A stretch of DNA of 33,793 bases from Sphingomonadaceae bacterium (GCA_947451875.1 CANGBE010000002.1:1-33793), one strand, 5' to 3'; positions 1,367-33,793 are shown, counted from the first letter of the stretch. Notes: a model not told the origin generated them from the letters alone. Program-made: numbers and translations.

Positions 1367-1378
1367 AGCCGCGCTCTA

Positions 1379-4327: not shown

Positions 4328-4362
4328 GATTCACTCCCTTCGTCCGCCGTTTGGCGGTATCT

Positions 4363-4378
4363 TTGACATCGGTGTCAA
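4363..4378. promoter_or_regulatory. Candidate LacI-type (KdgR-like) operator TTGACATCGGTGTCAA
   Basis: Palindrome with perfect TTGACA/TGTCAA arms and CG-containing centre, 36 nt upstream of the TonB receptor start; related to four other sites in the pectin module. Confidence 0.75.
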
Positions 4379-4488
4379 CGAAGGTTGAAATCTGTGCGGC
4401 AAAATCGCCCCACATTCGTTTCCAGGCCTTCCCAACACTTCCTGTATCGAGCGGTTGAGCTGTTACGTCTCTTGCCGCCAACCGGCAT

Positions 4489-4503
4489 GGTAACCGGTGT
4501 CAT
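4489..4503. promoter_or_regulatory. Candidate LacI-type operator GGTAACCGGTGTCAT
   Basis: Exact 15-nt match to the site at 9895-9909; upstream of pectate lyase. Confidence 0.75.
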
Positions 4504-4570
4504 TTTTTAGTTGCCGCATTTGATCGATGCTGTCAAGGTTCTGTTGGGAAGTGGATTGCGGAGAGTGACG

Positions 4571-7458: not shown

Positions 7459-8455
7459 CGCCCGCGCCTGCGGAAAAGCCGGCAAGGTCCGCTGCGCCCA
7501 GCAGGCACATATCGCCGGGGATGGTATGTTTGAGCGCGGTGAGCGCGAGGCCGCTCTCCGCCATGGCCCGAACGTCACCGTCCAGCAGCCACTGGTGCAG
7601 CACACCAGCGGCAAAGGCATCGCCGGTGCCGATCCGCTCGACAATGCCGGTGACATCAATCTCCTCGGTCTGGTGCGCGCGGTTGCGCGAATCGACGCGG
7701 GCGGAAATTCGGTGGTGGTCGCTGGTGACGAGGTGGCGGGCGGTCGAGGCGATCAGTTGCAGCTTGGGGAAGGCGGCAAAGGCCGCGTCCGAAGCCTCGC
7801 GCCGACGGTCTTCGCCATCGCCGGAGAAGGCCTTGCCAAGCAGAAGCGAAATGTCGCGGTGGTTGCCGATCAGGATCGTCGCGTCGGCGACAAGTTCGTT
7901 CAGCACTTCGCCTGGGTTCGAATCCCACGCCGACCACAACTGCCCGCGGTAATTGCCATCGAAGCAGATCGGCACGCCTGCCGCCACGGCAGCGGCATTG
8001 GCGGCGCGGGCCAGCGCAACGCCGTTTGGCCCCAGCGCGGGCGTGATGCCGCCGGTGTGCAGCAGCGCCGCTCCTGCCAGAGCTCCGGCAAAGTCGATTC
8101 CAGCAGGATCAGCCTCGGCAAAGGCGCTGCCGGCCCGGTCATAGGTGATGGCGGAAGGGCGCGGGCCCGATCCGGCCTCCATGAAGTAGATTCCCATCCG
8201 TCCCGCCGCGCGGGAGAGGTAGCGTGTGTCCACCCCGGCACCGCGTAGGGCGCTCAGCGCCTTGCGGCCCAGCGCATTGCCCGACACCAACCCGGCAAAG
8301 CGCACATCATGCCCAAGCGAGGCCAGCCCTGCGGCGACGTTCGCTTCCGCCCCGCCCACAAACATGCCGAGGCTGTCTGCCTGCGCCATCAGTTGCGATC
8401 CCGGCGGTGTCAGCCGGAGGAGGAGTTCGCCGAAGCAGGTGACGGTTTTGGTCAT
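7445..8455 (-). CDS. kdgK: 2-keto-3-deoxygluconate kinase (PfkB family)
   Basis: 336 aa; CFGELLLRLTPPG N-terminus, GGAEANVAAGLASLG, C-terminal GTGDAFAAGVLH PfkB signature; adjacent to KduD-like and RpiB-like genes. Confidence 0.88.
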   Translation of the reverse strand: MTKTVTCFGELLLRLTPPGSQLMAQADSLGMFVGGAEANVAAGLASLGHDVRFAGLVSGNALGRKALSALRGAGVDTRYLSRAAGRMGIYFMEAGSGPRPSAITYDRAGSAFAEADPAGIDFAGALAGAALLHTGGITPALGPNGVALARAANAAAVAAGVPICFDGNYRGQLWSAWDSNPGEVLNELVADATILIGNHRDISLLLGKAFSGDGEDRRREASDAAFAAFPKLQLIASTARHLVTSDHHRISARVDSRNRAHQTEEIDVTGIVERIGTGDAFAAGVLHQWLLDGDVRAMAESGLALTALKHTIPGDMCLLGAADLAGFSAGAGDVRR

Positions 8456-8464
8456 GCCAATTAC

Positions 8465-9220
8465 TTAGCGCGCCAACCAGCCACCGTCCACCGCCAGAAC
8501 CTGACCGGTGACATAGTCGGAAGCCTCGCTGGCGAGGAACACAGCTGCCCCGGCAATGTCCTCTGGCCGTCCCCAGCGTCCGGTGGGGATGCGCTCGAGG
8601 ATCTGGCGGCTGCGAGTTTCGTCTTCGCGTAGCGCCGTGGTGTTGTTGGTGCTGATATAGCCAGGGGCGATAGCGTTAACCTGCACGCCCTTGGGCGCGA
8701 GTTCGTTGGCCATGGCCTTGGTCACCCCGCCGACGCCGGACTTGGCCGCAGCATAGCTCGGCACGCGGATGCCGCCCTGAAAGGTGAGCAGGCTGGCGAT
8801 GTTGATGATCTTGCCTGAACCGCGTGTCGTCATGTGGCGCGCTGCCGCTTGGCTGAGGAAGAACAGCGTCTTGAGGTTGGTGTCCATCACCGTGTCCCAG
8901 TCCTCTTCGGAGAACTGGAGCAGATCGTCGCGGCGGATGATCCCGGCATTATTGACCAGTACGTCGATGCGGCCAAGGCCTGCCAGTGCCTCATCAATCA
9001 CCCGTCCGACCGGTTCGATCGAGCCGAAATCGGCCTTGATGTTCACCGCTTTGCGCCCTGTTGCCGCGATGGCGCGCAGGGTCTCGGTCGGCTCCGAGCG
9101 TCCAGCCACAGCCACATCGGCCCCGGCCTCGGCCAAAGCCACGGCAATCGCCTGCCCGATCCCGGTGTTGGCACCGGTAACTAGGGCAGCCTTGCCCGCG
9201 AGCGAGAACGAAATCGCCAT
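8465..9220 (-). CDS. kduD: SDR oxidoreductase, KduD/DhuD-like (2-deoxy-D-gluconate 3-dehydrogenase type)
   Basis: 251 aa; TGANTGIG cofactor motif, NNAGI, YAAAKSGV catalytic motif; context with kdgK and pectate lyase. Confidence 0.85.
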   Translation of the reverse strand: MAISFSLAGKAALVTGANTGIGQAIAVALAEAGADVAVAGRSEPTETLRAIAATGRKAVNIKADFGSIEPVGRVIDEALAGLGRIDVLVNNAGIIRRDDLLQFSEEDWDTVMDTNLKTLFFLSQAAARHMTTRGSGKIINIASLLTFQGGIRVPSYAAAKSGVGGVTKAMANELAPKGVQVNAIAPGYISTNNTTALREDETRSRQILERIPTGRWGRPEDIAGAAVFLASEASDYVTGQVLAVDGGWLAR

Positions 9221-9222
9221 GC

Positions 9223-9855
9223 TTACAGGCTCTTGAGATAGGCGGCGATCGCCTCATCCTTGGCGTTGGGATAGAATAGTTCGGCAAAATGCTCACCTGC
9301 GATTGCCGCCCTGAGCAGGCCCTGATCGACGGTCTTGAGCACGGTCAGCATGTCGTGGCACGAAGCCGACTTCATGTCCTTCAGGATGCTGCGGTTGGCG
9401 GCCATGAAGTGGGCGCGCTCCTTAGGGTAGCCTGCGCCACCTTCGTTCTCGAAGATCTTGCGATAGCAATCCTGCAGGTTGAGCTCCGCTGCCCAGCCGA
9501 AACCCTTGGCATAGGGCATCGACATGGCGTTGCCGTCGTTGATCTGGCTGAACAGGAACGCGTCGGTGGGATCGATGACGAGGCCACAGAATACGCCCGG
9601 CATGGCATTGGCTGCCAGCATCGAACCCATGCCGGTGCCACAACCGGTCACTACGAAATCGGCCGCGCCGGAATTGAGCAGAATGCCCGCCAGCAGCCCG
9701 TTCATCACATAGGTCAGCGAGGCCTTATCCTCGGGTGTGTACATGCCATAGTTGAACACCTGATGGCCCAGCGGTTCGGCAACCGAGCGCAGTGCCTCAT
9801 GGACAATGGCGTTCTTGGCGGCCTGGCTGTTCTCGATAATCAGGGCGATCTTCAT
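9223..9855 (-). CDS. RpiB/LacA/LacB-family sugar isomerase (candidate DhuI-like 4-deoxy-L-threo-5-hexosulose-uronate isomerase)
   Basis: ORF to 9921, MKIALIIENSQAAKNAIVHEALRS start at 9855; VTGCGTGMGSMLAANAMPGVFCGLV is the RpiB/LacAB core; 2 nt upstream of kduD. Confidence 0.8.
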   Translation of the reverse strand: MKIALIIENSQAAKNAIVHEALRSVAEPLGHQVFNYGMYTPEDKASLTYVMNGLLAGILLNSGAADFVVTGCGTGMGSMLAANAMPGVFCGLVIDPTDAFLFSQINDGNAMSMPYAKGFGWAAELNLQDCYRKIFENEGGAGYPKERAHFMAANRSILKDMKSASCHDMLTVLKTVDQGLLRAAIAGEHFAELFYPNAKDEAIAAYLKSL

Positions 9856-9894
9856 GGCTGGTCTTTCTTGCTTGTGTAGTGAATTGGCGCGCTG

Positions 9895-9909
9895 GGTAAC
9901 CGGTGTCAT
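9895..9909. promoter_or_regulatory. Candidate LacI-type operator GGTAACCGGTGTCAT
   Basis: Identical 15-mer to 4489-4503; 40 nt upstream of the RpiB-family gene start. Confidence 0.75.
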
Positions 9910-9929
9910 AGACAAAGGCAAGCGCAGAG

Positions 9930-10943
9930 CTAAACCCCTGCTACAGATGCGCGCGGGACGAATTCGGTAAGGAACAGCGATTTTTCCTCGGCTGCTGCCT
10001 CTGGATGGATCAGCTTCAATGCCGCCGAGCTGGCCATGGCGCGAATTGGCCAGCGCACTGTGGTCAGCGGCGGCCAGATCGTTGCGGCAATCGCGGTATC
10101 GTCAAAGCCGACGATGGAAAGCTCCTGCGGCACTGAAAGCCCGCGCGTCCGGGCGGCGTGGAGCACGCCTGCGGCCATCACATCGTTGCTGGCGAAGATG
10201 GCGGTGAAGCGCTCTGCGCCATCCAGCAACTGCTCACCGGCCGCGCGTCCGGTATCAAACGTATAGTTGCCGCGCGCGAGCATGTCTGGCCCTGTCGGCA
10301 GGCCTGCTGCGGTCATCGCATCGCGCCAGCCTGCCTCTCTCTCGGTCGCTGATCGGAACCCCTCTGGCCCTTGAACGAGGCCGATCCGTTGATGCCCTTG
10401 CGCGATCAGATAATCCACTGCATCGCGCACCGCCTGCCGGTCATTCGACTGCACCAGATGCGCGTCATCATCGAGTGTTGCTGAGCCCATGCGGACATAG
10501 TTGCAGCCCAATTCGGTAAAAAGTGCCGCCAGCGCGTCGTTTTCCGAAAGCGGCGGCAGGATCATCACGCCATAAAGTCGCTGCTGCTCAATGAATGCGC
10601 GGATATCGTCGAACAGATCCGGGCTGTGGCGATCGACCGGGCGGACGACAAGCGCGAATTCGCTGCCGCCGATGGCATCAAGCACGCCTTCCTGAAAGTT
10701 GAGCACCATCTGCGCGTTGGGGTTGTCATAGATCATCCCCAACAGGAAATTGCGCCGCAGCGCCAGCGCGCGCGCCTGCGGGTTGGGTACATAGGCAAGG
10801 TCGGCGATTACCGCCTCAACCTTTTCGCGCGTCGCCTCATTGAGCAGCGGCGAGCGGTTGATGACGCGGCTGACAGTTTTCTTCGACACACCGGCAAGGC
10901 GGGCGACGTCGTTGATCGTTGGCTGCCCTGTTCGCTTTGCCAT
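9930..10943 (-). CDS. LacI-family transcriptional regulator (candidate KdgR-type regulator of the pectin module)
   Basis: 337 aa; TINDVARLAGVSKKTVSRVINRSPLLNEATREKVEAVIADLAYVPNPQARAL HTH, periplasmic-binding-like effector domain. Confidence 0.93.
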   Translation of the reverse strand: MAKRTGQPTINDVARLAGVSKKTVSRVINRSPLLNEATREKVEAVIADLAYVPNPQARALALRRNFLLGMIYDNPNAQMVLNFQEGVLDAIGGSEFALVVRPVDRHSPDLFDDIRAFIEQQRLYGVMILPPLSENDALAALFTELGCNYVRMGSATLDDDAHLVQSNDRQAVRDAVDYLIAQGHQRIGLVQGPEGFRSATEREAGWRDAMTAAGLPTGPDMLARGNYTFDTGRAAGEQLLDGAERFTAIFASNDVMAAGVLHAARTRGLSVPQELSIVGFDDTAIAATIWPPLTTVRWPIRAMASSAALKLIHPEAAAEEKSLFLTEFVPRASVAGV

Positions 10944-14799: not shown

Positions 14800-17700
14800 G
14801 TGAAATTGCCGCAAGCCGTGCTATTCGCTGCATATGTTGCAAACGAAACGATTATAGCGCCCTTCGCTGATTTCGCGCCACCGGTGCGAGTACAGTCGGT
14901 TTTGCGTGCGGCGATTACGGCGGCTTGTCGCCGGCCCGAACCAGAATGTGTCACTGCACTGATTGGTGAGGCAGAGTTGCCCGATGCTTTGCGTGCGCAG
15001 GTTCGGGTCACGGCCATTGCCCTTGTCACGGCTCTCCGCGCCAAGGGCCAGCGCGGCGGGGTAGAGGCGCTGGTCAAGGAATACTCGCTCTCCAGCCATG
15101 AGGGTGTGGCGCTGATGTGCTTGGCCGAGGCCCTGCTGCGCATCCCCGACAATGCCACCCGCGACGCGCTTATCCGTGTCAAGATCGCCCACGGCAACTG
15201 GCAGGCCCATCTGGGCGAGGGGCGTTCGCTGTTCGTCAATGCCGCGACATGGGGGTTGGTGGTTACCGGAAAGCTCACGGGCAGCGTCAATGAAACTGGC
15301 CTCGCCGCAGCACTCGCCCGGCTGGTGGCCCGGGCCGGGGAGCCGGTAATTCGGCGCGGCGTCGATCTCGCCATGCAGATGATGGGCGAACAGTTCGTCA
15401 CCGGCCAAACTATCGCCGAAGCCCTGAAACGCGCGCGGAAGCTGGAGGCAGAGGGCTTCCTCTATTCCTACGACATGCTGGGAGAGGCCGCGACAACTGC
15501 CGCTGATGCGGCGCGTTATTACGCAGACTACGAAACCGCGATCCACGCCATCGGCAAGGCTTCGGCTGGCCGCGGCGTGGTTGGCGGGCCGGGCATTTCG
15601 ATCAAGCTCTCAGCGCTCCACCCCCGCTATTCGCGGTCGCAAGTCGCCCGGGTGATGGGCGAGCTTCTGCCGCGCGTGCAGGCGCTGGCCCTGCTGGCGC
15701 GGAGCTATGACATCGGGTTCAATATCGACGCCGAGGAGTCCGACAGGCTCGAACTGTCGCTCGATCTGCTTGAGGAACTGGCACTCGATCGGCGGCTTTC
15801 GGGCTGGAACGGACTGGGCTTCGTCGTCCAGGCTTATGGCAAGCGCTGCCCCTTCGTGATCGACTGGCTGGCTGATTTGGCGCGCCGTTCGGACCGGCGG
15901 ATCATGGTGCGGCTGGTCAAGGGCGCCTATTGGGACAGCGAGATCAAGCACGCGCAGGTCGATGGGCTCAGCGATTTTCCGGTCTATACCCGCAAGGTCC
16001 ATACCGATGTGGCCTATATCGCCTGTGCCAAACGACTGCTCGCAGCAAAGGTTTACCTGTTCCCGCAATTCGCTACCCACAATGCCCAGACCTTGGCGAC
16101 AATCTATGGCTTGGCGGGCGAGACCTTCACGGCTGGCGACTACGAATTCCAGTGCCTGCACGGCATGGGCGAACCGCTCTATGAAGAGGTCGTTGGCCCC
16201 GACAAATTGAACCGCCCCTGCCGCATCTATGCGCCGGTTGGGACGCACGAGACGCTGCTCGCCTATCTCGTGCGCCGCCTGCTGGAGAACGGAGCCAACA
16301 GTTCGTTCGTTCACCGTATCTGGGACGAGGGCGTGGCGGTAGAGGAGCTGGCGGAGGATCCGGTGGCAGCCGCGCGGGCGATTGCGCCAGTCGGGCTCCC
16401 GCATCCGGCGATTGCCCTGCCGCGCAATCTGTTTGCCGGGCGGTACAACTCTGCAGGGCTTGATCTGGCTAGTGAGGCGGTGCTGACGCGGTTGTCAGGC
16501 GTGCTCCCGCAAGGCCAGCAATGGGGGGCCGAGCCGCTGATCACGGGTCTCGAAATCGCCCGCCGCAGCCAGCCGGTGACCAATCCGGCGGGCCGGGGCG
16601 ATGTGGTTGGCTCGGTATCTTTTGCTCTGGATCGCGATGCTGCCCACGCGGTGCGGGCGGCGCATGGCGCTTGGCCGGACTGGGCTGCAGTGCCCGTGGA
16701 CCAACGCGCTGATTGCCTGAACCGCGCCGCCGATCTGCTCGAAGCGCGGATGGAAAGTCTGCTTGGTCTGATCTTGCGCGAGGCGGGCAAATCGCTTGCC
16801 AATGCTGTGGGTGAAGTGCGCGAGGCGGTCGATTTCCTGCGCTATTACGCAGTGCAGGCGCGGGCAACGCTTGGCCCAGATCACCAGCCGCTCGGCGCGG
16901 TGGTCTGCATCAGCCCGTGGAACTTTCCGCTAGCGATCTTCACCGGCCAGATTGCCGCCGCGCTGGTGACGGGAAATGCCGTGCTCGCCAAGCCGGCCGA
17001 GGAAACCCCGCTGATCGCCGCCGAGATGGTGCGCCTGCTGCATCAGGCAGGCGTGCCGCGCGAAGTGCTGCAATTTGTCCCCGGCGATGGCCGCGTCGGC
17101 GCCGCGCTGGTCGCCGAGCCGGAAGTGGCAGGCGTGATGTTCACTGGTTCGACCGAAGTCGCCAAGCTGATCCAGCGCGAGCTTGCTGGCCACACATCGC
17201 CGCACGGCGCGCCGATTCCGCTGGTCGCGGAAACCGGCGGGCAGAACGCGATGGTGGTCGATAGCTCGGCGCTGGCCGAACAGGTGACGGCTGACGTGAT
17301 CGCCTCGGCCTTTGATTCAGCAGGGCAGCGCTGCTCAGCGCTCAGGGTCTTGTGCCTGCAGGAGGATATCGCCGACCGCCAGCTTGCCATGCTGCGCGGG
17401 GCCTTGGCGGAACTGGCCGTCGGCAATCCGCAGCGGCTGGCTTGCGATATTGGTCCGGTAATCAGCGACGAGGCGCGCGCCGGGATCGAGGCGCATGTCG
17501 AGCGGATGGCCGCACTGGGCTGCCGAGTAGAACGCCTACCGCTTTCCGCCGAATGTGCGCATGGCACCTTTGTCGCTCCGACGATCATCGAGATCGACGA
17601 TATTGCCCAACTGGGCCGCGAAGTCTTCGGGCCGGTGCTGCACGTGGTGCGTTATCGGCGTGAGCGGCTGGATCAAATGATCGAGGCGATCCGCGCCACC

Positions 17701-18483
17701 GGCTATGGCCTGACTTTCGGGCTTCACACGCGGCTGGATGAGATGGTGGAGCAGCTTTCGAAACAAGCCGGGGCGGGCAATGTCTACGTCAACCGCAACG
17801 TCATCGGTGCGGTGGTGGGCGTGCAGCCGTTTGGTGGGCGCGGGCTTTCGGGTACCGGGCCCAAGGCGGGTGGTCCGCTGGCACTGGGGCGACTGGTGCG
17901 GACTGCACCAGTGGTTGAACTCGCTGCATCGGGACACAGCGACACCGCGAGTGCGGCGCTGGCCGAATGGCTCAAATCCAAAGGTGAAACAGACCTTGTG
18001 CAGCTTGTCAGGCAATGCCAGCGCCTCTCCCCGCTTGGCTTTATTGCGGAACTCCCGGGGCCAGTGGGAGAGCGCAATATCTATACGCTGCACCCACGCG
18101 GAGACGTGCTCTTGCTAGCGCGTACCCATGCCGGACTAGTGGCGCAACTGGCGGCAGCTCTGGCAACCGGCAACCAGGTCAGCGTGCTTAGCGATGCTGC
18201 CCTCAACGTGGGCTTTGGCGATCTGCCAAACAGTGTTTCCAGTCGGATCATCTGGCTGGGTTCCCTGCCCCAACGCGCCAACTTCGCTGCCGTGTTGATC
18301 GAACCCGGCGAGCAGCAGGCCTCCCACTTGCGGGCAATCGCCGCGATGGAGGGCCCCATCCCGCTGGTCCAGACCGCAGCGCCAGACGGCATCTACCGGC
18401 TCGAATGGCTGGTCGAGGAGCAATCGACTTCGATCAACACCACCGCAGCAGGGGGCAATGCCAGCCTGATGGCTTTAGTGTGA
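14800..18483 (+). CDS. putA: Bifunctional proline dehydrogenase / L-glutamate gamma-semialdehyde dehydrogenase
   Basis: 1227 aa; PRODH core ([48 protein letters not shown]) and ALDH core ([66 protein letters not shown]); GTG start, weak RBS. Confidence 0.92.
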
Positions 18484-20497: not shown

Positions 20498-21367
20498 ATG
20501 GCCATTGATCTCACAAAGATCCGCGCCATCGACATGCATGTTCATGCCGAGGTATCCTGCCACGATCCCGAAGACCCGGTGATGGGCGCGTTCTTCGATG
20601 CCGCCAGCGCCTATTTCAAGGCGCCGCGCGAGCGCCCCAAGATGCCGGAGATTGCTGCACTGTACCGCGAGCAGCAAATCGCCTTTTGCCTGTTCACCGT
20701 CGATTGCGAGAGCGGGGTTGGGGCGAAGCGTGTCTCGAATTACGAGATCGCCGATTTCGCCGCGCAGCACAACGACATCTGCATCCCTTTCGCCTCGATC
20801 GATCCGCACAAGGGCAAGCTAGGCGCGCGTGAAGCGCGGGATCTGATCGAGAATCACGGCGTCCGCGGTTTCAAGTTCCACCACATCATGCAGGATATCG
20901 ATCCGGCAGACCGCGTTGCCTATCCGATCTATGAGGTAATCGCTGAGCACGGACTGCCCGCGATTTTCCACACCGGCCATTCCAGCATGGGCACCGGTAT
21001 GCGCGGCGGCGGTGGCATTCGCCTGAAATATGGCCAGCCGATGCTGGTCGATGATGTTGCGGTGGATTTCCCTGACATGAAGATCGTGCTCGCCCATCCC
21101 TCATGGCCTTGGGTTGATGAAAGCCTGTCGATGGCGCTGCACAAGGAAAACGTCTTCATCGATCTGTCAGGCTGGTCACCAAAGTACTTCCAGCCGCAGA
21201 TCATCCAGTACGCCAACACCCAGTTGCGAGGAAAAATGCTGTTCGGCAGCGATTTCCCGCTGATCCACCCCGACAAGTGGCTAAGCGCGGCGCGTGAGGT
21301 CGGTTTCCGCGAAGACGTGCTGCCGGGCATCATGAAAGACAATGCCGTGCGGCTGCTCGGGCTCTAG
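20498..21367 (+). CDS. Amidohydrolase-2 family metal-dependent hydrolase/decarboxylase
   Basis: ORF 20414-21367, ATG 20498; IDMHVHAE, IFHTGHS, IVLAHPSWPWVDE, LFGSDFPLIHPDKW metal-binding and catalytic motifs. Confidence 0.85.
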   Translation: MAIDLTKIRAIDMHVHAEVSCHDPEDPVMGAFFDAASAYFKAPRERPKMPEIAALYREQQIAFCLFTVDCESGVGAKRVSNYEIADFAAQHNDICIPFASIDPHKGKLGAREARDLIENHGVRGFKFHHIMQDIDPADRVAYPIYEVIAEHGLPAIFHTGHSSMGTGMRGGGGIRLKYGQPMLVDDVAVDFPDMKIVLAHPSWPWVDESLSMALHKENVFIDLSGWSPKYFQPQIIQYANTQLRGKMLFGSDFPLIHPDKWLSAAREVGFREDVLPGIMKDNAVRLLGL

Positions 21368-21789
21368 TCGATCAGCGCCCTCAGTGCGGGCATGAAGTGC
21401 GGCCGGTCTGCATCGGGGATGCGGGCGAGGAGATCTGCCTCGAACTGGTGCGTTATTGATTGAACCTCACCAAGTGTGGTCCGACCTTCAGGGGTGAGGA
21501 CGATCGCTTGCGATTTGCGGTCCAGTGGCTGCCGTGTAATCAACTCCGCAGCCTCTAGACGGTTGAGCAGCGGCACCATGTTGGCGCGCTGGATGTCGAG
21601 CACTTTGCCGATCTCGCTGGAGGTCATGTCATCGCGCCCGGCGATCAGTAGCAGCACTGAGGCATCGGAAATCTTCAGGTCAATCGCGCCAAGTCGACTG
21701 GCTAGCTCAGCCATCATGGCATTGGCGGCGCGGCGCAGGACATAGCCAGGAAGCGCTGCCAAGGGGTCATTGGATGGGACATCGCTCAA
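21364..21789 (-). CDS. MarR-family transcriptional regulator (candidate FerC/FerR/HcaR-type)
   Basis: 141 aa; LKISDASVLLLIAGRDDMTSSEIGKVLDIQRANMVPLLNRLEAAELITRQPLDRKSQAIVLTPEGR wHTH; divergent from feruloyl-CoA hydratase/lyase. Confidence 0.9.
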   Translation of the reverse strand: MSDVPSNDPLAALPGYVLRRAANAMMAELASRLGAIDLKISDASVLLLIAGRDDMTSSEIGKVLDIQRANMVPLLNRLEAAELITRQPLDRKSQAIVLTPEGRTTLGEVQSITHQFEADLLARIPDADRPHFMPALRALID

Positions 21790-24222: not shown

Positions 24223-24343
24223 TGCCTGAATAGTTGCCCTGAAAAATTGCCGTGACTGTGCCATTGCCTTTGCAAGCTGGCTGGGAATATCATGCCCGCG
24301 TGTGAAAGCCGGAACTGGACCCGGCGTTTAAGAGGAATCATTG

Positions 24344-24991
24344 GTGTCAGCGAAACAGGATGGCCTGCCAAAGCGGCGCGCGGAAGCCTTGGAAACGCGT
24401 GAGAATATTCTTGAGGTAGCCACCCGTGAGTTTTCCGAGAAGGGCCTGGCTGGCGCTCGGATTGACGAGATTGCCGAGCTGACCTCGTCATCCAAGCGGA
24501 TGATCTATTATTATTTTGGCGGCAAGGACGAGCTTTATCGCGCCGTGCTTGAGCGCGCTTATGAACATATCCGCAATCAGGAGCAGGCCGCCAACTTTGC
24601 CAGCCTGCCACCCGATCAGGCGCTGCGGGCGATTGTCGGGCACAATTTCGATTACCATTATGAACACCCGGAATTCGTCCGTCTCGTAATGAACGAAAAT
24701 GTCCATCACGGCGAGCACATCGCCAAGATCGAAAGCATGAAGCAGCGCAACCGCAGCGTGATCGACGCGCTGGCGGGCATTCTTGAAAAGGGGCAGGCGC
24801 AAGGATTGTTCCGCGACGGGATTGATCCGGTGGAACTGCATACGACGATTTCGGCGCTCAGCTTTTACAATGTGTCCAACCGGCACACTTTCCTGCATAA
24901 TTTTGGCGTCGATTTCACTGCCCCCGAAGTGCGTGCGCGGCGCCGTGACCAGATCATTGATTGCGTGCTCACTTGGGTCGCCAAGCGCTGA
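24344..24991 (+). CDS. TetR-family transcriptional regulator
   Basis: GTG start at 24344, 7 nt after AGAGGA; TRENILEVATREFSEKGLAGARIDEIAELTSSSKRMIYYYFGGKDELYRAVLERAY HTH. Confidence 0.92.
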   Translation: MSAKQDGLPKRRAEALETRENILEVATREFSEKGLAGARIDEIAELTSSSKRMIYYYFGGKDELYRAVLERAYEHIRNQEQAANFASLPPDQALRAIVGHNFDYHYEHPEFVRLVMNENVHHGEHIAKIESMKQRNRSVIDALAGILEKGQAQGLFRDGIDPVELHTTISALSFYNVSNRHTFLHNFGVDFTAPEVRARRRDQIIDCVLTWVAKR

Positions 24992-25034: not shown

Positions 25035-25050
25035 TGTACTAACCGGTACA
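25035..25050. promoter_or_regulatory. Candidate TetR operator TGTAC-taaccg-GTACA
   Basis: Perfect TGTAC/GTACA inverted repeat between the tetR gene and the esterase, 22 nt upstream of the esterase ATG. Confidence 0.7.
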
Positions 25051-25072
25051 CATAATAAGCGAGGGATGGGAT

Positions 25073-26071
25073 ATGCGGGCAGGTTGGGTAATTGCGTCGG
25101 CAATCGTTGCCGTGTTGGGTGCAAGTGCAGCAGTGGCGAAGGCGCCGCGAGATTTTCCTGTGCTCGAAAAACCCGGAACCGTTGATACCTATCCGGTCCA
25201 CACTACCCAATGGCCTGGCGGCGTCACCAGCCTTGCCGATGTTACCTATTCGACGATCCCGGGCTATCGCCCGATGATGATCGACATCTACATGCCGCCC
25301 AAAAAGAGCGGGCCAAAGCCACTGATCATGTACATCCACGGCGGCGGCTGGGTTGGCGGTACGCCGCGCAATGCGGGCGCGCATGGCAATTTTCCTGCCG
25401 CTCTGGCCAAGCTGGCGAGCGAAGGCTTTGTTGTCGCCAGTCTGGAATATCGCTTGGCCAGCGAAGCGTCATTCCCTGCGCAGGTCCAAGACGTGCGCGC
25501 AGCTCTTCGCTTTCTCAAGAGTAATGCCGCCATCTATGGCATGGATCCGAGCCGTGCGGGCGTATGGGGCGGTTCGGCGGGCGGCCACCTGACGGCACTT
25601 GCCGCATTGAGCTGCGGTGTATCATCGCTTGAGGCCAATGGCGTGAAAGCGGCGGCTGGCAGCGAATGCTTTCAGGCTGCGGTTACATGGTACGGCGTGT
25701 TTGATTTCGGGGCACTCGCCGCAGGACGGCCGGGCGGCAATGACGGTGCGGCAAACAAGCTGCTCGGCTGTGATGGCCCCTGCAGCGACGAAAAGTTCGC
25801 TGCCGCCAGCCCGGTGACCTATATCGACGCCAAGGATCCGCCGTTCCTGCTGATCCACGGCACGGAAGACAAGACCGTGCCCGTCGCCCAATCGCATCTG
25901 GCCGAGGCCAAGATGAAGGCGGCCGGAATGCAGGTAGAATCGATCTACATCCCGGGCGTCGATCACAGCTTTATCGGCCACACCCCGGCAGAAACGCGCG
26001 CAGCCACTTTGCTTGCGACCAACGCGACGTTCGATTTCTTCCACAAGACCTTGGACAAGCCTGCGAAGTGA
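25073..26071 (+). CDS. Exported alpha/beta hydrolase (BD-FAE/HSL-like esterase; candidate feruloyl/chlorogenate esterase)
   Basis: 332 aa; signal peptide; MYIHGGGWVGG, GGSAGGHLTALAAL, LLIHGTEDKTVP, GVDHSFIG. Confidence 0.85.
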   Translation: MRAGWVIASAIVAVLGASAAVAKAPRDFPVLEKPGTVDTYPVHTTQWPGGVTSLADVTYSTIPGYRPMMIDIYMPPKKSGPKPLIMYIHGGGWVGGTPRNAGAHGNFPAALAKLASEGFVVASLEYRLASEASFPAQVQDVRAALRFLKSNAAIYGMDPSRAGVWGGSAGGHLTALAALSCGVSSLEANGVKAAAGSECFQAAVTWYGVFDFGALAAGRPGGNDGAANKLLGCDGPCSDEKFAAASPVTYIDAKDPPFLLIHGTEDKTVPVAQSHLAEAKMKAAGMQVESIYIPGVDHSFIGHTPAETRAATLLATNATFDFFHKTLDKPAK

Positions 26072-26457
26072 CCCGCGCCAAGACTGCTCTTGCCTGTACG
26101 GTTGCACTGGTTCTCGGCGGGCTTGCGGCCTCGCTTAGCGCACAGGAAGCGCCGCCGGTTGAACTGCTGCCGCCATTACCACCAGAGCAGGTGCTTGCTG
26201 CTTTTGCACCGGACAAGGGCCGGGATCAAACCGCGGCGTCCTGCGGCCTGTGCCATGCCCCCGCGATGATAACCGGCAAGCATTACAGTGCCGACAAGTG
26301 GGCGGAAACCGTCGATCACATGGTCGACAAGGGCGCCAAGGTCAGCGACGCCGACTATGACACCATCGTTGATTACCTCGCGCGCAATTACGGCCCTGAA
26401 AAGCTTGCCGCTATTTCACCGGTAGCGGGTGCGGCTTCGGGGTCTGCCCCCCGCTGA
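26068..26457 (+). CDS. Small exported c-type cytochrome
   Basis: 129 aa, GTG start overlapping the previous stop; signal peptide and a single CGLCH (CxxCH) heme motif. Confidence 0.82.
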   Translation: MTRAKTALACTVALVLGGLAASLSAQEAPPVELLPPLPPEQVLAAFAPDKGRDQTAASCGLCHAPAMITGKHYSADKWAETVDHMVDKGAKVSDADYDTIVDYLARNYGPEKLAAISPVAGAASGSAPR

Positions 26458-27346
26458 TCGCCCACTTGATTGCCTCCAGCGTCATGGTCCGCACCCGTGG
26501 ATCGTCCCATGATGCGTCGGTGTGGCCGAGCCCGGTGTAGAACACCCGGCCCGCGCCGTATGACTTGATCCACGCCACCGGAAAATCGCCGTCGGTGCGG
26601 TGGACCGAGGGTGCTTTCATGTTGACGCTCGAGGTGTCGATCCGCGCCAGCACATCGACATTGGCCCGCGAATAGGGCTTGGCCAGCATGGCATAGTGCT
26701 CGTCTTTCAGCACCATACCGCTCTTCAGCGCCTTCATTGCCGGGAAATCGGGCCGCTCGACCACGATCTTGGCATCGGCGATTCCCCAGGGGTGGTTATC
26801 AAACACCCCGCCCAGCATCTCGCCATATTCGGGCCAGTTAACGGCCGTGGCAGTTGCCGTGTGAATGCCGATGAAGCCCTTGCCATCCTTCGCGACGAAA
26901 TCCAGGAGGTCCTGCTTCTGCTCGGGCGTCATGGTCGTGTCGCCATTGGTGTAAAACAGCACAGCGTCGAAATAATCGAGGTTCTTGCCGCGGGCCTGCT
27001 TGGGGCCGCCCTTGGCATAGGCGAACTTGCCCCAGGTTTCCTGCTTGGTCACCCAGTCGGTATCGGTGCGGATGAAGGTGACATAGGCCCCCGATTGGCG
27101 GCCGATCTGCTCGATCACTGAGATGGCATGGCTAACCGCCATGTGCGCCGACTGGTTTCCGGTGGAAAGATCAGCGATCACCAGCAGGCGCTTCTTGCCG
27201 GCATAGACATCCTGATCGCCCGGCGGCGGGGTGCGCGGCGGGCCTATAGGCGCGGGGGGAGGGACAGGAGCAGGTGCAGTTTGGGCTGAAAGAGTAAGCG
27301 CCAACGCGGCACCAGCGGCAAGGCGAAGGATGGTGTTCTTCATCAT
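26411..27346 (-). CDS. Exported ThuA-like domain protein
   Basis: 311 aa; signal peptide; KKRLLVIADLSTGNQSAH, YFDAVLFYTNGDTTMTPEQKQDLLDFVAKDGKGFIGIHTATAT, GAGRVFYTGLGHTDASWDDPRV as in ThuA-like proteins. Confidence 0.85.
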   Translation of the reverse strand: MMKNTILRLAAGAALALTLSAQTAPAPVPPPAPIGPPRTPPPGDQDVYAGKKRLLVIADLSTGNQSAHMAVSHAISVIEQIGRQSGAYVTFIRTDTDWVTKQETWGKFAYAKGGPKQARGKNLDYFDAVLFYTNGDTTMTPEQKQDLLDFVAKDGKGFIGIHTATATAVNWPEYGEMLGGVFDNHPWGIADAKIVVERPDFPAMKALKSGMVLKDEHYAMLAKPYSRANVDVLARIDTSSVNMKAPSVHRTDGDFPVAWIKSYGAGRVFYTGLGHTDASWDDPRVRTMTLEAIKWAISGGQTPKPHPLPVK

Positions 27347-29316
27347 TTTGGCTCCCGTGGCAGGGCGAAGGCAGTGATCGTGTCGGAGGCGAGCGGGCTG
27401 TCGAGGAAGCTGCCGCCGGTCGAAGTGATCGTCACGAACTGGCGACCATCGCTGCCTTTGTAGGTGATCGGCGTGGCATGGGCGGCGGCCTCAAGCTTTA
27501 CCTCCCACAGCATCTTGCCGGTGCTGGTGGCAAAGGCGCGAAAGCGCGAATCGTCGCTGGCCCCGATGAAGGTGAGGCCGCTCGCGGTAGTGATCGAGCC
27601 GCCGATATTGGGCCGCCCGGTCAGGCGCTTGCCCTCGGGCAGGCTGTCGGTCACGCCGAGCGGAACCTGCCAGACGATCTTGCCGGTATTGACGTTGACC
27701 GCGCTCAGTCGGCCCCACGGGGTCTTCTGGCACATGAGTTTTGTGCCTTCCATCTGGAAGCGCCCGCTCACCGGCCCGCGCTCATAGGGAAGCGCGCCTT
27801 TGGAGGGCACCAGCGAGGTTACCTGTCCCAGATCGCTGGTGTTGACTATCAGCAGGCCTCTGTCGGGATCATAGCTCATCCCGCCCCAGTTTGCGCCGCC
27901 CTGCAGGCCGGGGAAGCTGATCGTAACTTCGTTGAAGCGCACCGGCACATAGAGACCGCCGGACACCATCTTGTTGGCGGCGATCCAAGCCTCGCAGCCA
28001 GCCTTAAGCTCGGGCGTGACATCGGCCACATCGCCCGGGGCAAAGTTTGTGCGAGCCAGCGGCGGGGTAATCTTGGGGTAAGGCTGGGTTGGTGCCGCCG
28101 CTTCGCCTGGAACATCGCTAGCCGGAACCTTCCGATATTCCACCGGCAGGATCGGCTTGCCCGTGACCCGGTTGAGCACGAACAGCAGCGCGTTCTTGGA
28201 TACGATTCCTACGGCGGGAACTGACTTCCCGCCCACCTTTGCATCGAACAGGATCGGCGGGGCTTGCAGGTCATTGTCCCAGATATCATGGCGGACTGCC
28301 TGAAAGTGCCAGAGGTATTTGCCGGTCCTGGCATCGGCCGCAACCAGCGAGGTGCCGAACAGGTTGTCGCCCTTGCGGTCACCACCATAGCGGTCAAACG
28401 CCGGGGCGCCGAAGGGCATATAGACGATGCCGCGCGCCGCATCGACGGTGAGAAAGCCCCATGAATTGACCCCGCTACGCCGCTCAGCGCTGCCCGGAGC
28501 CCATGTTTCGTAGCCCTTCTCACCCTTGTGCGGCACCGAGTGGAAGGTCCAGACCAGCTTGCCCGTTCGAACATCCCAAGCGCGGACATCGCCAGCCGCG
28601 CCCAGCGGCGGGAACTCCTGAACTGCCGCGCCGGTAATCACCAGATCGCCATAGACGATCGGCGGAGAGGTCATGCCATAGAAGCGCGCCTGCGCGCCGT
28701 TCAGCACTTCAGGCGTTTTCAGATCGACGATGCCGTGGTCACCAAAGCCCTCTGCGAAAGCGCCAGTCGCCGCGACAAGCGCGATCAGGCGGCCATCGCG
28801 GGTGCCGAAAACGATGCGGGCCGGCGTAGCGGCGTCACCCGGCCAGTATTCCACCCCGCGCAGGCTTGGCTGGCCATCGCCGCCAATCGGTGTGGCCCAT
28901 AGCTCGGAACCGGTGGCCGGATCGAGCGCGACCACGCGGCCATAGGGGGTGGAGATGAACATGCGCCCACCGACAACCAGCGGCGTGACTTGGGATCCGG
29001 CAAAGCGCGAGCGGCGGCGCGAGATATTCGGCGCTCCACCAGCGCCTGCGCCAATCCCCTCGGCAGCGCGCTGGGCATCGGCATTGGCATCGGGTGTGGC
29101 GGCGGCGGGAATCGCTGGCGGCTTCATATGATAGACCCATGCCGGCCCAAGGCTGGCAACGTTGGTCGGAGTGATTTCCTTGAGCGGAGAGTGGCGCTGG
29201 CCGCCTTTGTCATGGCCATAGGTTGCCCAGTCACCATTGGCATCGGCTAAAGCTGGGGCGGAAAGCAGCGCTGAGCCCAGCAGCACGGCCTTCAGACTTT
29301 TCAAGCCTGCTCGCAT
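27343..29316 (-). CDS. PQQ-dependent dehydrogenase (quinoprotein, glucose/quinate dehydrogenase-like, periplasmic)
   Basis: 657 aa; signal peptide; GDWATYGHDKGGQRHSPLKEITPTNVASLGPAWVYHM, repeated beta-propeller blades, TPWGRLSAVNVNTGKIVWQVPLG; no multi-TM N-terminal domain visible. Confidence 0.9.
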   Translation of the reverse strand: MRAGLKSLKAVLLGSALLSAPALADANGDWATYGHDKGGQRHSPLKEITPTNVASLGPAWVYHMKPPAIPAAATPDANADAQRAAEGIGAGAGGAPNISRRRSRFAGSQVTPLVVGGRMFISTPYGRVVALDPATGSELWATPIGGDGQPSLRGVEYWPGDAATPARIVFGTRDGRLIALVAATGAFAEGFGDHGIVDLKTPEVLNGAQARFYGMTSPPIVYGDLVITGAAVQEFPPLGAAGDVRAWDVRTGKLVWTFHSVPHKGEKGYETWAPGSAERRSGVNSWGFLTVDAARGIVYMPFGAPAFDRYGGDRKGDNLFGTSLVAADARTGKYLWHFQAVRHDIWDNDLQAPPILFDAKVGGKSVPAVGIVSKNALLFVLNRVTGKPILPVEYRKVPASDVPGEAAAPTQPYPKITPPLARTNFAPGDVADVTPELKAGCEAWIAANKMVSGGLYVPVRFNEVTISFPGLQGGANWGGMSYDPDRGLLIVNTSDLGQVTSLVPSKGALPYERGPVSGRFQMEGTKLMCQKTPWGRLSAVNVNTGKIVWQVPLGVTDSLPEGKRLTGRPNIGGSITTASGLTFIGASDDSRFRAFATSTGKMLWEVKLEAAAHATPITYKGSDGRQFVTITSTGGSFLDSPLASDTITAFALPREPK

Positions 29317-29341
29317 GACTTAACTCTCCCTTTTCCTTTTA

Positions 29342-29357
29342 TGGACTAGTTCGTACA
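29342..29357. promoter_or_regulatory. Candidate TetR operator TGGAC-tagttc-GTACA
   Basis: One-mismatch version of TGTAC-N6-GTACA in the divergent PQQ dehydrogenase/dehydroquinase intergenic region. Confidence 0.6.
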
Positions 29358-29428
29358 TAAATCTTTCCATGGCAAGGCCAATCGGATATGCCAAGGTGTA
29401 GCCGTGTGAAACAAACGGTATCTGGAGA

Positions 29429-29884
29429 ATGAATGTGGGCGGGACAATTCTGGTTCTCAACGGACCCAACCTGAACCTTCTGGGCGAACGCGAACCGGCG
29501 ATCTACGGGCATGATACGCTCGCCGATGTCGAAGCGGCGTGCCGGGCAGAGGCTGCTGCAGCGGGCTATGAGATCGATTTCCGCCAGACTAACGCCGAGC
29601 ATGAAATGGTCGACTGGATTCAGGCGGGGCGCAAGGGGCTGGCTGGGATCGTCATCAATCCGGCTGCCTTCACTTATGCCGCCTATCCGATCCTTGATGC
29701 GCTTAAACTCGTCGATTGCCCGGTGGTGGAAGTGCATATCTCAAACATTCATCGGCGCGAGGCCGAGTGGCGCTCGAAGTCGATTATGACGCAGGTGGTG
29801 ACTGGGATCATCTCGGGGCTTGGCGTCAATGGCTATCCGCTCGCCGTGCGCCACATCATCACGGCGCGGAGCCGCGCGGTATGA
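29429..29884 (+). CDS. Type II 3-dehydroquinate dehydratase homolog (divergent, probably catabolic)
   Basis: 151 aa; LNGPNLNLLGEREPAIYG, HEMVDWIQAGRKGLAGIVINPAAFTYAAYPILDALK, VEVHISNIHRREAEWRSKS; strong AroQ family match with altered substrate loop. Confidence 0.88.
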   Translation: MNVGGTILVLNGPNLNLLGEREPAIYGHDTLADVEAACRAEAAAAGYEIDFRQTNAEHEMVDWIQAGRKGLAGIVINPAAFTYAAYPILDALKLVDCPVVEVHISNIHRREAEWRSKSIMTQVVTGIISGLGVNGYPLAVRHIITARSRAV

Positions 29885-31161
29885 GCGGGGCGACGATGAA
29901 GCCCAGCCGTGCCCGGCTTACCGTGCTGGCGCTGATCTCTGTCGCGACGCTGATCAACTATCTTGACCGCTCAGTGATGGGTGTTGCCAAGCCCGAACTG
30001 GTCAAGGATCTGCACATCTCGCCCGAAGTGATGGGGCTGATCTTCTCGGCCTTCTCGTGGACCTATGCGCTGGCGCAGATTCCCGGCGGTTATGTCATAG
30101 ACAAGCTGGGCACCCGGCTGACCTATGCCCTGTCGCTCGGCCTCTGGTCGCTGGCGACGGCGGTGCATGGCCTGATGACCAGCGTTGCCGGTCTGGTTTC
30201 CGCGCGTCTGGCGCTGGGCATTGCCGAAGCACCTTGCTTCCCCGCCAACAGCCGCGTGCTGAGCACCTGGTTCCCGCAGCAGGAACGCGCCAAGGCCACC
30301 GGCGTCTATACGGTCGGCGAATATATCGGCCTTGGCATGCTGATCCCGGTGCTTGGCTGGATCATGGCGCACTATGGCTGGCGCTCGCTATTCTATGTCG
30401 TTGGCGCCATCGGCATCATCTTTGCCTTCATTTTCCACCGCCTCTATCGCGATCCGCAGGACAGCAAGTCGGTCAATCAGGCCGAGCTGGATCTGATCGC
30501 GGCGGGCGGCGGATTCACCGCAGGTTCCGCCAGCAACGCCTTCAGTTGGTCCATGGTGCGCAAACTGGTGACCACGCGGCAAATTGCCGGGGCGTCGATC
30601 GGGCAGTTCTGCAGCAACTCGACGCTGGTGTTCTTCCTCACCTGGTTCCCCAGCTACCTCGCCGAAGAGCGCGGCATGACATTCATCAAGGCGGGCTTCA
30701 TGGTCTCGCTGCCTTACCTTGGTGCATCGCTGGGTGTGCTGCTCGGCGGTATCTTTTCCGACTGGCTGATTCGTCGCACCGGCTCACCGACGATTGGCCG
30801 CAAGGTGCCGATCATCACCGGGCTGCTGCTCTGTGCCTCAATGATTAGCGCCAACTTCCTTGAGAGCAACGAGGCAGTGATCGCGGTCATGTCTGTTGCC
30901 TTCTTCGGACAGGGCCTCGCCGGCCTCGGCTGGACACTACTGTCAGACGTTGCACCAAAGGAAATGATGGGGCTGACGGGCGGTCTGTTCAACTTTTTCA
31001 CCAACCTCGCGGGCATCATCACCCCGCTGGTCGTTGGTTTCGTGGTTGGCGCGACCGGCAGTTTCTATGGCGCGCTTGCCTATATTGGCGCGCTCGGGGT
31101 GATCGGCGCTGCGGCCTATATATTTGTGCTGGGTCCGGTGGAGCGAGTGGTTATCGATTGA
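29881..31161 (+). CDS. MFS transporter (ACS family; sugar acid/aromatic or alicyclic acid type)
   Basis: ORF 29716-31161; ATG at 29881 overlaps the dehydroquinase stop (ATGA); LINYLDRSVMGVAKPELVKDLHISPEVMGLIFSAFSWTYALAQIPGGYVIDKLGTR, GIAEAPCFPANSRVLSTWFPQQERAKATG. Confidence 0.88.
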   Translation: MSGATMKPSRARLTVLALISVATLINYLDRSVMGVAKPELVKDLHISPEVMGLIFSAFSWTYALAQIPGGYVIDKLGTRLTYALSLGLWSLATAVHGLMTSVAGLVSARLALGIAEAPCFPANSRVLSTWFPQQERAKATGVYTVGEYIGLGMLIPVLGWIMAHYGWRSLFYVVGAIGIIFAFIFHRLYRDPQDSKSVNQAELDLIAAGGGFTAGSASNAFSWSMVRKLVTTRQIAGASIGQFCSNSTLVFFLTWFPSYLAEERGMTFIKAGFMVSLPYLGASLGVLLGGIFSDWLIRRTGSPTIGRKVPIITGLLLCASMISANFLESNEAVIAVMSVAFFGQGLAGLGWTLLSDVAPKEMMGLTGGLFNFFTNLAGIITPLVVGFVVGATGSFYGALAYIGALGVIGAAAYIFVLGPVERVVID

Positions 31162-31196
31162 GCTGCGTCCCTAAGGGAAAATGAAACCGGCTTGAC

Positions 31197-31226
31197 ATGT
31201 ACTGATTGGTACATGTACCGTTCAGT
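31197..31226. promoter_or_regulatory. Candidate TetR operator TGTAC-tgattg-GTACA nested with a 26-bp palindrome
   Basis: TGTAC-N6-GTACA at 31198-31213; overlapping near-perfect palindrome ACTGATTGGTACA/TGTACCGTTCAGT at 31201-31226 (11/13 arm match); immediately 3' of TTGACA (31192-31197). Confidence 0.7.
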
Positions 31227-31276
31227 TAACTGTGAGGGAACACCCGCAGTCATTCACCCACGGGAGGGGACCAATA

Positions 31277-33793
31277 ATGAACTCGAAGATCCGCTTCGCG
31301 GCGAACTCGTCGCTTGTCGCCATCGGCCTCGTATGGAGCGCCGCCGCTTTCGCGCAGGCCAAGCCTGCTGCTGATGATCAGGCCGCCGATGATGCCGCCG
31401 CGACCAAGGAAATCGTCGTTACCGGCTCGAGCATCAAGGGCGTTGCTCCGGTTGGTTCGAACCTCGTCACTGTCGGCAAGGATGACATCGCCAAGCTGGG
31501 CGCCAACACTGTCCAGCAGGTGCTGAAGTCGGTTCCCGCCGTTGTCGGTCTCAACAGCCCAGGCCAAGGCGGCTTCGGTTCGTTTGACGGCGCGGGCACC
31601 AATGCCCCGACCATCCATAGCCTTGGCGCTTCGGCTTCGAACTCCACGCTGATCCTGCTCAACGGCCACCGCATGCCAGTTGGTGGCGCGAACCACGTGC
31701 TCGCCGATCCCAACATCGTTCCGCCGATGATGCTGCAGCGCGTGGAAGTTCTTTCGGACGGCGCCTCGTCGGTTTACGGATCTGACGCCGTTGCCGGTGT
31801 TATTAACTTCATCACCCGCCGCGATCTCGATGGCTTTGAAGTCAACCTGCAGAAGGGCTTTGGCAAGCAGTATGGCACGATCAACGCCGGTCTGGTTGCC
31901 GGCAAGAAGTGGGATACCGGCTCGGTTATCTTCGGCTATGCCTATTCCAACCGCGACAACCTGAGCGCGGGCGACCGCTCGTTCATGGACCCTAACCTGG
32001 TTTCGCGCGGCGGTTTCAACTTCCGTGACAACTTCTGCGGCCCCAGCGCGTCGATCACCACAGGTGGCCGCACCTACTACACACCTTATGGCGCGGGCGG
32101 CGTCAACGGCGTAGCCTATGTTCCGGCGGCAACCGGCACCGCCGTGGCCAATCAGAACGGGCAGTGCGAATACCACAGCGCCTGGGATTTGATTCCGTCG
32201 GAAGTGCGCCACAATGCGATGGTCAGCGTCCAGCAGGAAGTTGGCGATTCGCTCAAGCTGACTGGCGATATTGTCTATTCAAATCGCAAGAACGTGCAGC
32301 GCGTTTCGCGCGGCAATGCGACCGGAACGATCTTCGCTTCGGGCGCTCCCACTGGCCAGTCGAACAATCCATTTGCAACTGCGGCCTTCAACGCACTTAA
32401 CGCGGCCGAACTGGCGCGTTGGGTTGGTCTCGGCGGCACCAATACATCGGGAAACTTTGTTCCGATCACTTCGGCTGCAGTCAACTTCAACGCTGATACG
32501 CTGATGGGCCCCGGCGCCAAGATCGTCGGCAAGGATGAGACGTTCTATGCCCGTCTCGATGCTGAATATGCGATCAATGATGCATGGCATGTCAATCTGG
32601 GTGGATCGCTAAGCCGTGATCAGTCGTCGGTTGAATCGCTCAACCGCCTGAACGCCAGCGGCTTCCAGCTGGCCCTTAATGGCAAGGCTTCTGCGGTTAT
32701 CAACGGTGTGGCAAACACTGTCAGCCAGACGCTCACTGCAGCCAATGCCATCGACGTATTTGGCGGCGGTGGCACTTCAGCGGCAACGCTGGCTGGCCTC
32801 GCAGACTCGCGCGTTTACCAGATCGGCGACATGACGCTGTTCAACGCCTACGGCAAGATTGACGGCGAGCTGTTCGAACTGCCCGGCGGCAAGGCCAAGA
32901 TCGCCATCGGCGGCGAATATTCGAAGTACTCGCTTGAGCAGAACACGGTTCAGCCGAACGGCTTGGGCGCTGCCTCGTTCAACTCGCTGGCCTATGTCCT
33001 GCACTATGGCCGCAATGTAAAATCGGGCTATGCTGAGCTTTACCTGCCGCTGGTTGGTCCGGAGCAGAACATACCTGGCATCTACAAGCTCGACATCAAC
33101 CTTTCGGGCCGCACTGATAGCTACAGCGACGTTGGCAGCACGACCAATCCCAAGATCGCCGCCAACTGGGAAGTGATCGAAGGTATTCGTTTGCGCGGCA
33201 ACTGGGCCAAGAGCTTTGTTGCTCCCGCGCTAACCTCGGTCGGTTCGAACGCAGTGGGCCGCACGGGTGAATCGAGCTTCACAACCTCGGGTAATGTTAC
33301 CCTGCCTTACTCGATCTTCCCGAATGCCGCAGCAGCAGCTGGCGCAGGCTGCGTTTCCACGGCGACGTCTTGCACGATCAACGGAGCCAACTTCGGCATT
33401 CAGATCAACGGCGGCAATGGCGCTCTGGTTCCGCAGAAGGGCAAGGCCTGGTCAATCGGTCTGGATATCGCACCGCCATCGCTGCGTGGCCTGCGCATTT
33501 CGGTCACCTATTGGAACAACAAGCTGACCGGCGGCGTCACGGCTCCGGCTCTGTCGCTGATCACCAGCTCGTCGGCCCTGTCCCAGTTCCTCACCGTCTA
33601 TCCCACCGGCGCTACGGCAGCCCAGATTGCCGCAGCTACGGCAACCTTGCCGCAGACCGGCGTAGTTGGCGGTGGCGCCGGTTCCAGCGTCAGCGGTACG
33701 GTCAACCCGATCTACTTCATCTACTCGAACCAGCAGCAGAACGTGCTCAACCTCGATGTCTCTGGCGTCGACGTTTCGGCATCCTACAAGCTG
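31277..33793 (+). CDS. TonB-dependent receptor, C-terminally truncated by the window edge
   Basis: Reads MNSKIRFAANSSLVAIGLVWSAAAFAQAKPAADDQ... EIVVTGSSIKGVAPVGSNLVTVGKDDIAKLGANTVQQVLKSVPAVVG... VEVLSDGASSVYGSDAVAGVINFITRRDLDGFEV plug domain followed by barrel. Confidence 0.93.
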   Translation, partial: MNSKIRFAANSSLVAIGLVWSAAAFAQAKPAADDQAADDAAATKEIVVTGSSIKGVAPVGSNLVTVGKDDIAKLGANTVQQVLKSVPAVVGLNSPGQGGFGSFDGAGTNAPTIHSLGASASNSTLILLNGHRMPVGGANHVLADPNIVPPMMLQRVEVLSDGASSVYGSDAVAGVINFITRRDLDGFEVNLQKGFGKQYGTINAGLVAGKKWDTGSVIFGYAYSNRDNLSAGDRSFMDPNLVSRGGFNFRDNFCGPSASITTGGRTYYTPYGAGGVNGVAYVPAATGTAVANQNGQCEYHSAWDLIPSEVRHNAMVSVQQEVGDSLKLTGDIVYSNRKNVQRVSRGNATGTIFASGAPTGQSNNPFATAAFNALNAAELARWVGLGGTNTSGNFVPITSAAVNFNADTLMGPGAKIVGKDETFYARLDAEYAINDAWHVNLGGSLSRDQSSVESLNRLNASGFQLALNGKASAVINGVANTVSQTLTAANAIDVFGGGGTSAATLAGLADSRVYQIGDMTLFNAYGKIDGELFELPGGKAKIAIGGEYSKYSLEQNTVQPNGLGAASFNSLAYVLHYGRNVKSGYAELYLPLVGPEQNIPGIYKLDINLSGRTDSYSDVGSTTNPKIAANWEVIEGIRLRGNWAKSFVAPALTSVGSNAVGRTGESSFTTSGNVTLPYSIFPNAAAAAGAGCVSTATSCTINGANFGIQINGGNGALVPQKGKAWSIGLDIAPPSLRGLRISVTYWNNKLTGGVTAPALSLITSSSALSQFLTVYPTGATAAQIAAATATLPQTGVVGGGAGSSVSGTVNPIYFIYSNQQQNVLNLDVSGVDVSASYKL

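Follow-up and report, generated by a model that had tools for sequence, protein, structure and literature searches.

Near-perfect palindromes beside a TetR-family gene outline a predicted quinate/shikimate regulon in a Sphingomonadaceae bacterium

Quinate and shikimate catabolic clusters are known as qui in Acinetobacter and Pseudomonas and as qsu in Corynebacterium glutamicum, and their described regulators are the IclR-type PcaU and the LysR-type QsuR. The locus described here lies in a 33,793-nucleotide stretch of Sphingomonadaceae DNA, all of which was analyzed and which we call the window. It would have in common with qui and qsu a predicted route from a PQQ or NAD quinate/shikimate dehydrogenase through dehydroquinase and dehydroshikimate dehydratase to protocatechuate. 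Unlike those systems, it has a regulator of the TetR family, its proposed regulon includes an outer-membrane TonB receptor and esterases predicted to be exported, and its PQQ dehydrogenase has no membrane segment and is accompanied by a small cytochrome. The TetR-family catabolic repressors RutR, KstR, RolR and MbdR offer a second comparison, as they share the TetR fold, a short palindromic operator placed over promoters and a multi-unit regulon, but the operator and the quinate/shikimate gene set here are different. The solved structures closest to this TetR include RutR, at a sequence identity of about 22%. TetR repressors and quinate pathways are each well known; in the open-access literature, a body that leaves out most subscription papers, we found nothing describing control of quinate catabolism by a TetR-family protein.

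The regulator gene and the four units downstream of it are as follows.

24341-24991, plus strand: tetR, TetR-family regulator (Pfam TetR_N and TetR_C_29), the proposed reader of the sites
25073-26071, plus strand: predicted secreted alpha/beta esterase of the BD-FAE family (Pfam BD-FAE, 9.1e-59)
26068-26457, plus strand: small c-type cytochrome with a CGLCH haem motif (weak matches: Cytochrome_CBB3, 9.9e-4; SorB, 5.6e-10, under the cut-off)
26411-27346, minus strand: ThuA-domain protein (Pfam ThuA, 1.4e-40), same direction as the PQQ dehydrogenase
27343-29316, minus strand: PQQ quinoprotein dehydrogenase (Pfam PQQ, 8.7e-188)
29429-29884, plus strand: type II 3-dehydroquinate dehydratase (Pfam DHquinase_II, 1.7e-52; NF003806, 185 bits, cut-off 171)
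29881-31161, plus strand: MFS importer (Pfam MFS_1, 1.5e-59), its start overlapping the dehydroquinase stop
31277-33793, plus strand: TonB-dependent receptor, incomplete at the contig end (Pfam Plug, 1.4e-14; barrel, 6.7e-14)

The esterase is assigned as far as the BD-FAE family, with its ester specificity predicted: its nearest relatives in the PDB include acetyl-xylan esterases, the N-terminus resembles a signal peptide as judged by eye, and the protein is a candidate hydroxycinnamoyl-quinate (chlorogenate/feruloyl) esterase. The PQQ dehydrogenase is nearest to the glucose/quinate/shikimate family, but the N-terminal membrane segment is missing. Against TIGR03074 (QuiA, the membrane-bound PQQ quinate dehydrogenase) it scores 452 bits over positions 203-783 only, under the cut-off of 832.65, so that on both score and membrane domain it falls outside QuiA and its substrate is therefore not fixed by family. 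Between 26068 and 29316 this enzyme without a membrane segment is convergent with the small cytochrome c gene and paired with the ThuA protein. It is possibly a soluble quinate dehydrogenase having its own electron acceptor, with the cytochrome a candidate to take its electrons. The dehydroquinase could alternatively serve biosynthesis. In the sister genome G013 a shikimate/quinate dehydrogenase gene of the SDH type (L036:11786-12694), above the NF009201 cut-off, comes next after the TonB gene. No quiC was found in the window's own assembly, which is 64% complete.

Palindromic sites lie in the intergenic gaps ahead of these units.

25035-25050, no strand: operator 1, TGTACTAACCGGTACA, perfect match (0 mismatches), esterase start 22 bp downstream
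29342-29357, no strand: operator 2, TGGACTAGTTCGTACA (minus-strand reading TGTACGAACTAGTCCA), 1 mismatch
31198-31213, no strand: operator 3, TGTACTGATTGGTACA, perfect match (0 mismatches), TonB receptor promoter
31214-31229, no strand: weaker tandem copy, TGTACCGTTCAGTTAA, immediately 3' of operator 3, matrix score 13.1

The first-pass annotation had reported three 16-nt sites of the form TGTAC-N6-GTACA, and all three are present where it placed them, with 0, 1 and 0 mismatches, in intergenic gaps of 81, 112 and 115 bp. Operator 2 occupies the divergent gap between the PQQ dehydrogenase, whose minus-strand start is 26 bp away, and the dehydroquinase, whose start is 71 bp away. The inventory overlooked the second, tandem site that is conserved at the TonB promoter. 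Its "N6" is also too unspecific, since the spacer is non-random: the aligned sites give the consensus TGWAC-BRRYYV-GTWCA, with a palindromic purine/pyrimidine core, BRRYYV.

For the window, a first-order Markov model predicts 0.0019 perfect copies, against 2 seen, and 0.13 copies with at most one mismatch, against 3 seen. With at most two mismatches the window shows no enrichment (6 found versus 3.7 expected), and the claim therefore stands on the near-perfect sites. Genome-wide counts were made by pattern searches, and the matrix was applied to loci. The genome's own assembly (G000; 1.63 Mb, 240 contigs) has five places with at most one mismatch, three of them in the window. Near-perfect sites on contigs C63, C121, C15 and C53, seen in the sequence only, were regarded as background because about six sites with at most one mismatch are expected by chance per 1.63 Mb. 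The 118-bp gap upstream of tetR (24223-24340) holds no site, and autoregulation of tetR was rejected for the window; many distant genomes do have a site before tetR.

The regulator itself is a canonical member of its family, with matches to TetR_N (PF00440; 6.4e-12, 45.5 bits versus a cut-off of 24) and TetR_C_29 (5.7e-45, 152.7 bits versus 26.2). Its AlphaFold model (mean pLDDT 93.8) has an all-helical TetR fold, and the Foldseek matches are TetR proteins. The closest solved structure by both sequence (31% identical) and fold (TM 0.81) is 3npi, the TetR-family protein DIP1788 of Corynebacterium diphtheriae and prototype of TetR_C_29, whose entry title names no ligand. In the ligand domain, the polar residues R114, E119, N120, H167 and N180 are invariant, which would fit a polar acid; the argument is a weak one because R114, E119 and N120 are present in 3npi too.

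Where TetRs are 72-97% identical, the site recurs at the corresponding promoters, and alignments of six genomes show footprints in which sites are kept while flanks diverge. Operator 1 is kept in six genomes (own, G013, G034, G051, G039 and N. piscinae). Operator 2 is identical in four of five (own, G013, N. piscinae and N. aerophilum) despite differing flanks, and operator 3 is kept in G013, G034, G039, N. piscinae and N. aerophilum. G013 (matrix score 13.1) and G034 (17.1) likewise have a tandem copy beside operator 3. Farther out, G005, G007, G029 and G048 (TetRs 46-51% identical) have a perfect site ahead of a membrane-type PQQ dehydrogenase. G027 and G046 (TetRs 54-59% identical) have no site at the standard threshold; the quiC-tetR gap (L046, L048) holds only the variant core GGACTAGTTCGT, which is the core of operator 2 and is conserved beside TTGACA in both genomes, and this suggests that their TetR subclade may use a shifted operator.

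The G013 genome (3.4 Mb), whose TetR is 97% identical, extends the regulon beyond the cluster. It has four perfect sites genome-wide, two of which are the cluster's esterase and TonB promoters. The third is placed 35 bp upstream of where the match to an unlinked quiC begins (645 bits against the QuiC model, cut-off 1200), and the fourth lies 67 bp ahead of a carboxylesterase with homologues (43-69% identical) inside the G034 cluster and beside quiC in G039. As the targets are the cluster, quiC and the carboxylesterase, all four perfect sites suit one pathway. The earlier proposal that the sites unite these units into one regulon is strongly supported by the comparison across genomes, though it left the quinate/shikimate pathway unnamed and missed quiC, the second esterase of G013 and the DAHP synthase gene of the own genome described below.

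The assignment to quinate/shikimate catabolism follows from gene neighborhoods. TetR orthologues lie near QuiC in 47 of 80 loci, near shikimate dehydrogenase (SDH) in 52 and near dehydroquinase (DHQase) in 39; since 72 of the 80 are linked to at least one of the three, we take the regulon to be one for quinate/shikimate catabolism. Conceivably the TetR does use these sites as its operators yet responds to caffeate, ferulate or their CoA thioesters, with the quinate genes as passengers. The regulon includes esterases, and directly upstream of tetR lie genes for a p-hydroxycinnamoyl-CoA hydratase/lyase (NF006588, 417 bits, cut-off 276) and a CoA ligase, both in the window and in G013. No site precedes the hydratase/lyase and ligase genes, however, and they have a MarR gene of their own; the hydratase/lyase is near this TetR in just one of the 80 loci. 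We therefore regard hydroxycinnamate sensing as unlikely. Service of the operators to the upstream hydroxycinnamate genes was likewise rejected, as no site was found there.

Quinate/shikimate control can be laid out as a pathway. In the simplest mechanism, a TetR dimer would in the off state sit on the 16-bp palindrome TGWAC-BRRYYV-GTWCA where it overlaps core promoters, and the quinate/shikimate branch would supply the metabolite that releases it: quinate, shikimate or 3-dehydroshikimate. The TonB receptor would carry quinate or a hydroxycinnamoyl-quinate ester across the outer membrane, and the exported BD-FAE esterase would free the quinate. A periplasmic PQQ dehydrogenase, together with the small cytochrome c, would oxidize quinate to 3-dehydroquinate, which the MFS carrier would import. 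Dehydroquinase would then form 3-dehydroshikimate, and QuiC, presumably encoded elsewhere in the genome, would convert it to protocatechuate. The substrates are probably chlorogenate-type (hydroxycinnamoyl-quinate) esters, an assignment made because of the esterases, the TonB receptor and the neighboring hydroxycinnamate genes.

We consider it very probable that the sites, with the tandem copy, are operators of the TetR at 24341-24991 acting by repression and metabolite release on one quinate/ester pathway. From the computed sites, their conservation, the co-occurrence of motif and TetR clade and the gene families, we infer the binding, repression, ligand, chlorogenate substrate and enzyme compartments. 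Such a regulon predicts how plant-associated bacteria turn on the use of quinate and probably chlorogenic acid, and the operator and regulator could act as a quinate/shikimate biosensor.

That the neighboring TetR is the protein reading the sites was examined at more distant loci, a scan that the first-pass annotation had proposed as a check. A matrix built from 14 near-relative sites was run on 74 loci, from a TetR search of GTDB genomes, in which the TetR is just 46-55% identical. It found 54 sites in 52 of the 74 loci, 40 of which have a site at most 300 bp before the orthologous tetR; the other 22 had none at threshold. Symmetric column permutations of the matrix gave a mean of 1.4 sites and a maximum of 18, with none of 300 matching the real count, and the reversed sequence of the same loci gave one. 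The 74 loci are not all phylogenetically independent, and the controls share the same dependence. The motif accompanies this TetR in Novosphingobium and as far away as Burkholderiales and Rhizobiales. A TRAP transporter, a shikimate dehydrogenase and QuiC parts adjoin the TetR gene of Acidovorax sp. NB1 and Ensifer, and Novosphingobium plasmids carry a compact form in which carboxylesterase-esterase-quiC is divergent from tetR-MFS-TonB-shikimate dehydrogenase.

These counts bear on whether a paralogous TetR, or some other regulator, binds the sites while the neighboring TetR has a different operator. Adjacency by itself is no proof of binding, and the tetR of the window is not preceded by a site. 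Against this stand the sites before orthologous tetR genes in 40 distant loci, and the perfect core-matching sites of the genus, which occur in 11 of the 60 genomes and are mostly at loci of this TetR or at its targets. A second binder is accordingly very improbable, and the neighboring TetR almost certainly reads the 16-bp sites, as judged from co-occurrence and promoter conservation. Perfect sites in G006, G031 and G035, and further ones in G039 (C1, C13 and C44, of which C1 and C13 were read), have no recognized pathway link; these unlinked sites of the four genomes would be background or belong to another regulator. The regulator appears as a "TetR/AcrR family regulator" in 341 plasmid records and is present, unnamed, in many proteobacterial genomes; it would now have both a name and a code for the DNA that it recognizes.

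Two candidate promoter elements place the sites relative to transcription.

31192-31197, plus strand: TTGACA, candidate -35, abutting operator 3 and likewise ahead of it in 5 of the 6 TonB promoters that were aligned
29370-29375, minus strand: TTGCCA, candidate -35 of the PQQ dehydrogenase promoter, invariant in 5 genomes

At the TonB promoter five of the six genomes have the site immediately 3' of TTGACA, and in the five-genome alignment operator 2 is located 18 bp after the invariant TTGCCA. With 17-bp spacing, the latter would put the -10 within operator 2, a putative promoter assignment.

The same TetR appears to control a class II DAHP synthase gene too, tying catabolism to aromatic biosynthesis, and this link is the most novel part of the analysis. 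The discovery cases were G051, where the gene (above the TIGR01358 cut-off) is preceded by a perfect site, and G039; later finds were the G000/G013 pair and N. flavum. In the own genome the site is TGAACTAACTGGTACG (C56:3275-3290, locus L230), and the match to the gene in L192 starts 87 bp farther on. Of 10 genomes whose TetR is at least 65% identical, 5 (G000, G013, G039, G051 and N. flavum) have such a site (score 19.8-23.3; 66-131 bp before the match); it is absent from all 8 whose TetR falls below 60% and from all 17 that lack a close TetR relative. G000 and G013 are near-identical at DAHP synthase, so these amount to about four independent cases. Searching the own genome for TGWACBRRYYVGTWCA with one mismatch gives six places (three in the window, the C56 site and two others); the backwards pattern gives eight, and the degenerate search alone is therefore non-significant. 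We weigh evenly, for and against, the broader proposition that this TetR clade is a general proteobacterial regulator of quinate/shikimate catabolism which, in part of Novosphingobium, has also brought the single class II DAHP synthase gene under its control; one shikimate-branch sensor would then couple quinate breakdown to entry into aromatic biosynthesis. Inclusion of DAHP synthase perhaps replaces dehydroshikimate drained by QuiC. The sites make the connection between catabolism and biosynthesis directly testable.

A biosynthetic target also raises the question of sign, as the TetR could be an activator instead of a repressor at certain units, such as the DAHP synthase gene, or even at all of them. 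A few TetR-family proteins are activators, and opposite signs at biosynthetic and catabolic promoters would be physiologically sensible. At the TonB and PQQ promoters, however, the site overlaps the presumed -35/-10, the usual place for a repressor, and we judge activation to be highly unlikely.

Chance palindromes are the least credible explanation and can be set aside: the pattern with at most two mismatches is not over-represented in the window, but near-perfect sites are about 20- to 1000-fold above expectation and are conserved across genera, and the Markov expectation together with the distant-orthologue matrix test excludes a chance origin.

The rest of the window holds other catabolic genes. 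Between 18561 and 24222 lies a hydroxycinnamate set of p-hydroxycinnamoyl-CoA hydratase/lyase, CoA ligase, aldehyde dehydrogenase, DUF3237 protein and amidohydrolase, with a divergent MarR gene (21364-21789); it is probably a separate MarR-controlled regulon using the acid freed by the esterase. A second, unrelated group at 374-10943 has its own TonB receptor, two esterases, a sugar kinase, a KduD-like dehydrogenase, an RpiB/LacAB-like protein and a LacI regulator, and looks like a set for the use of uronate or pectin-derived sugar. Between both catabolic groups, at 14800-18483, is the gene for the proline utilization protein PutA.
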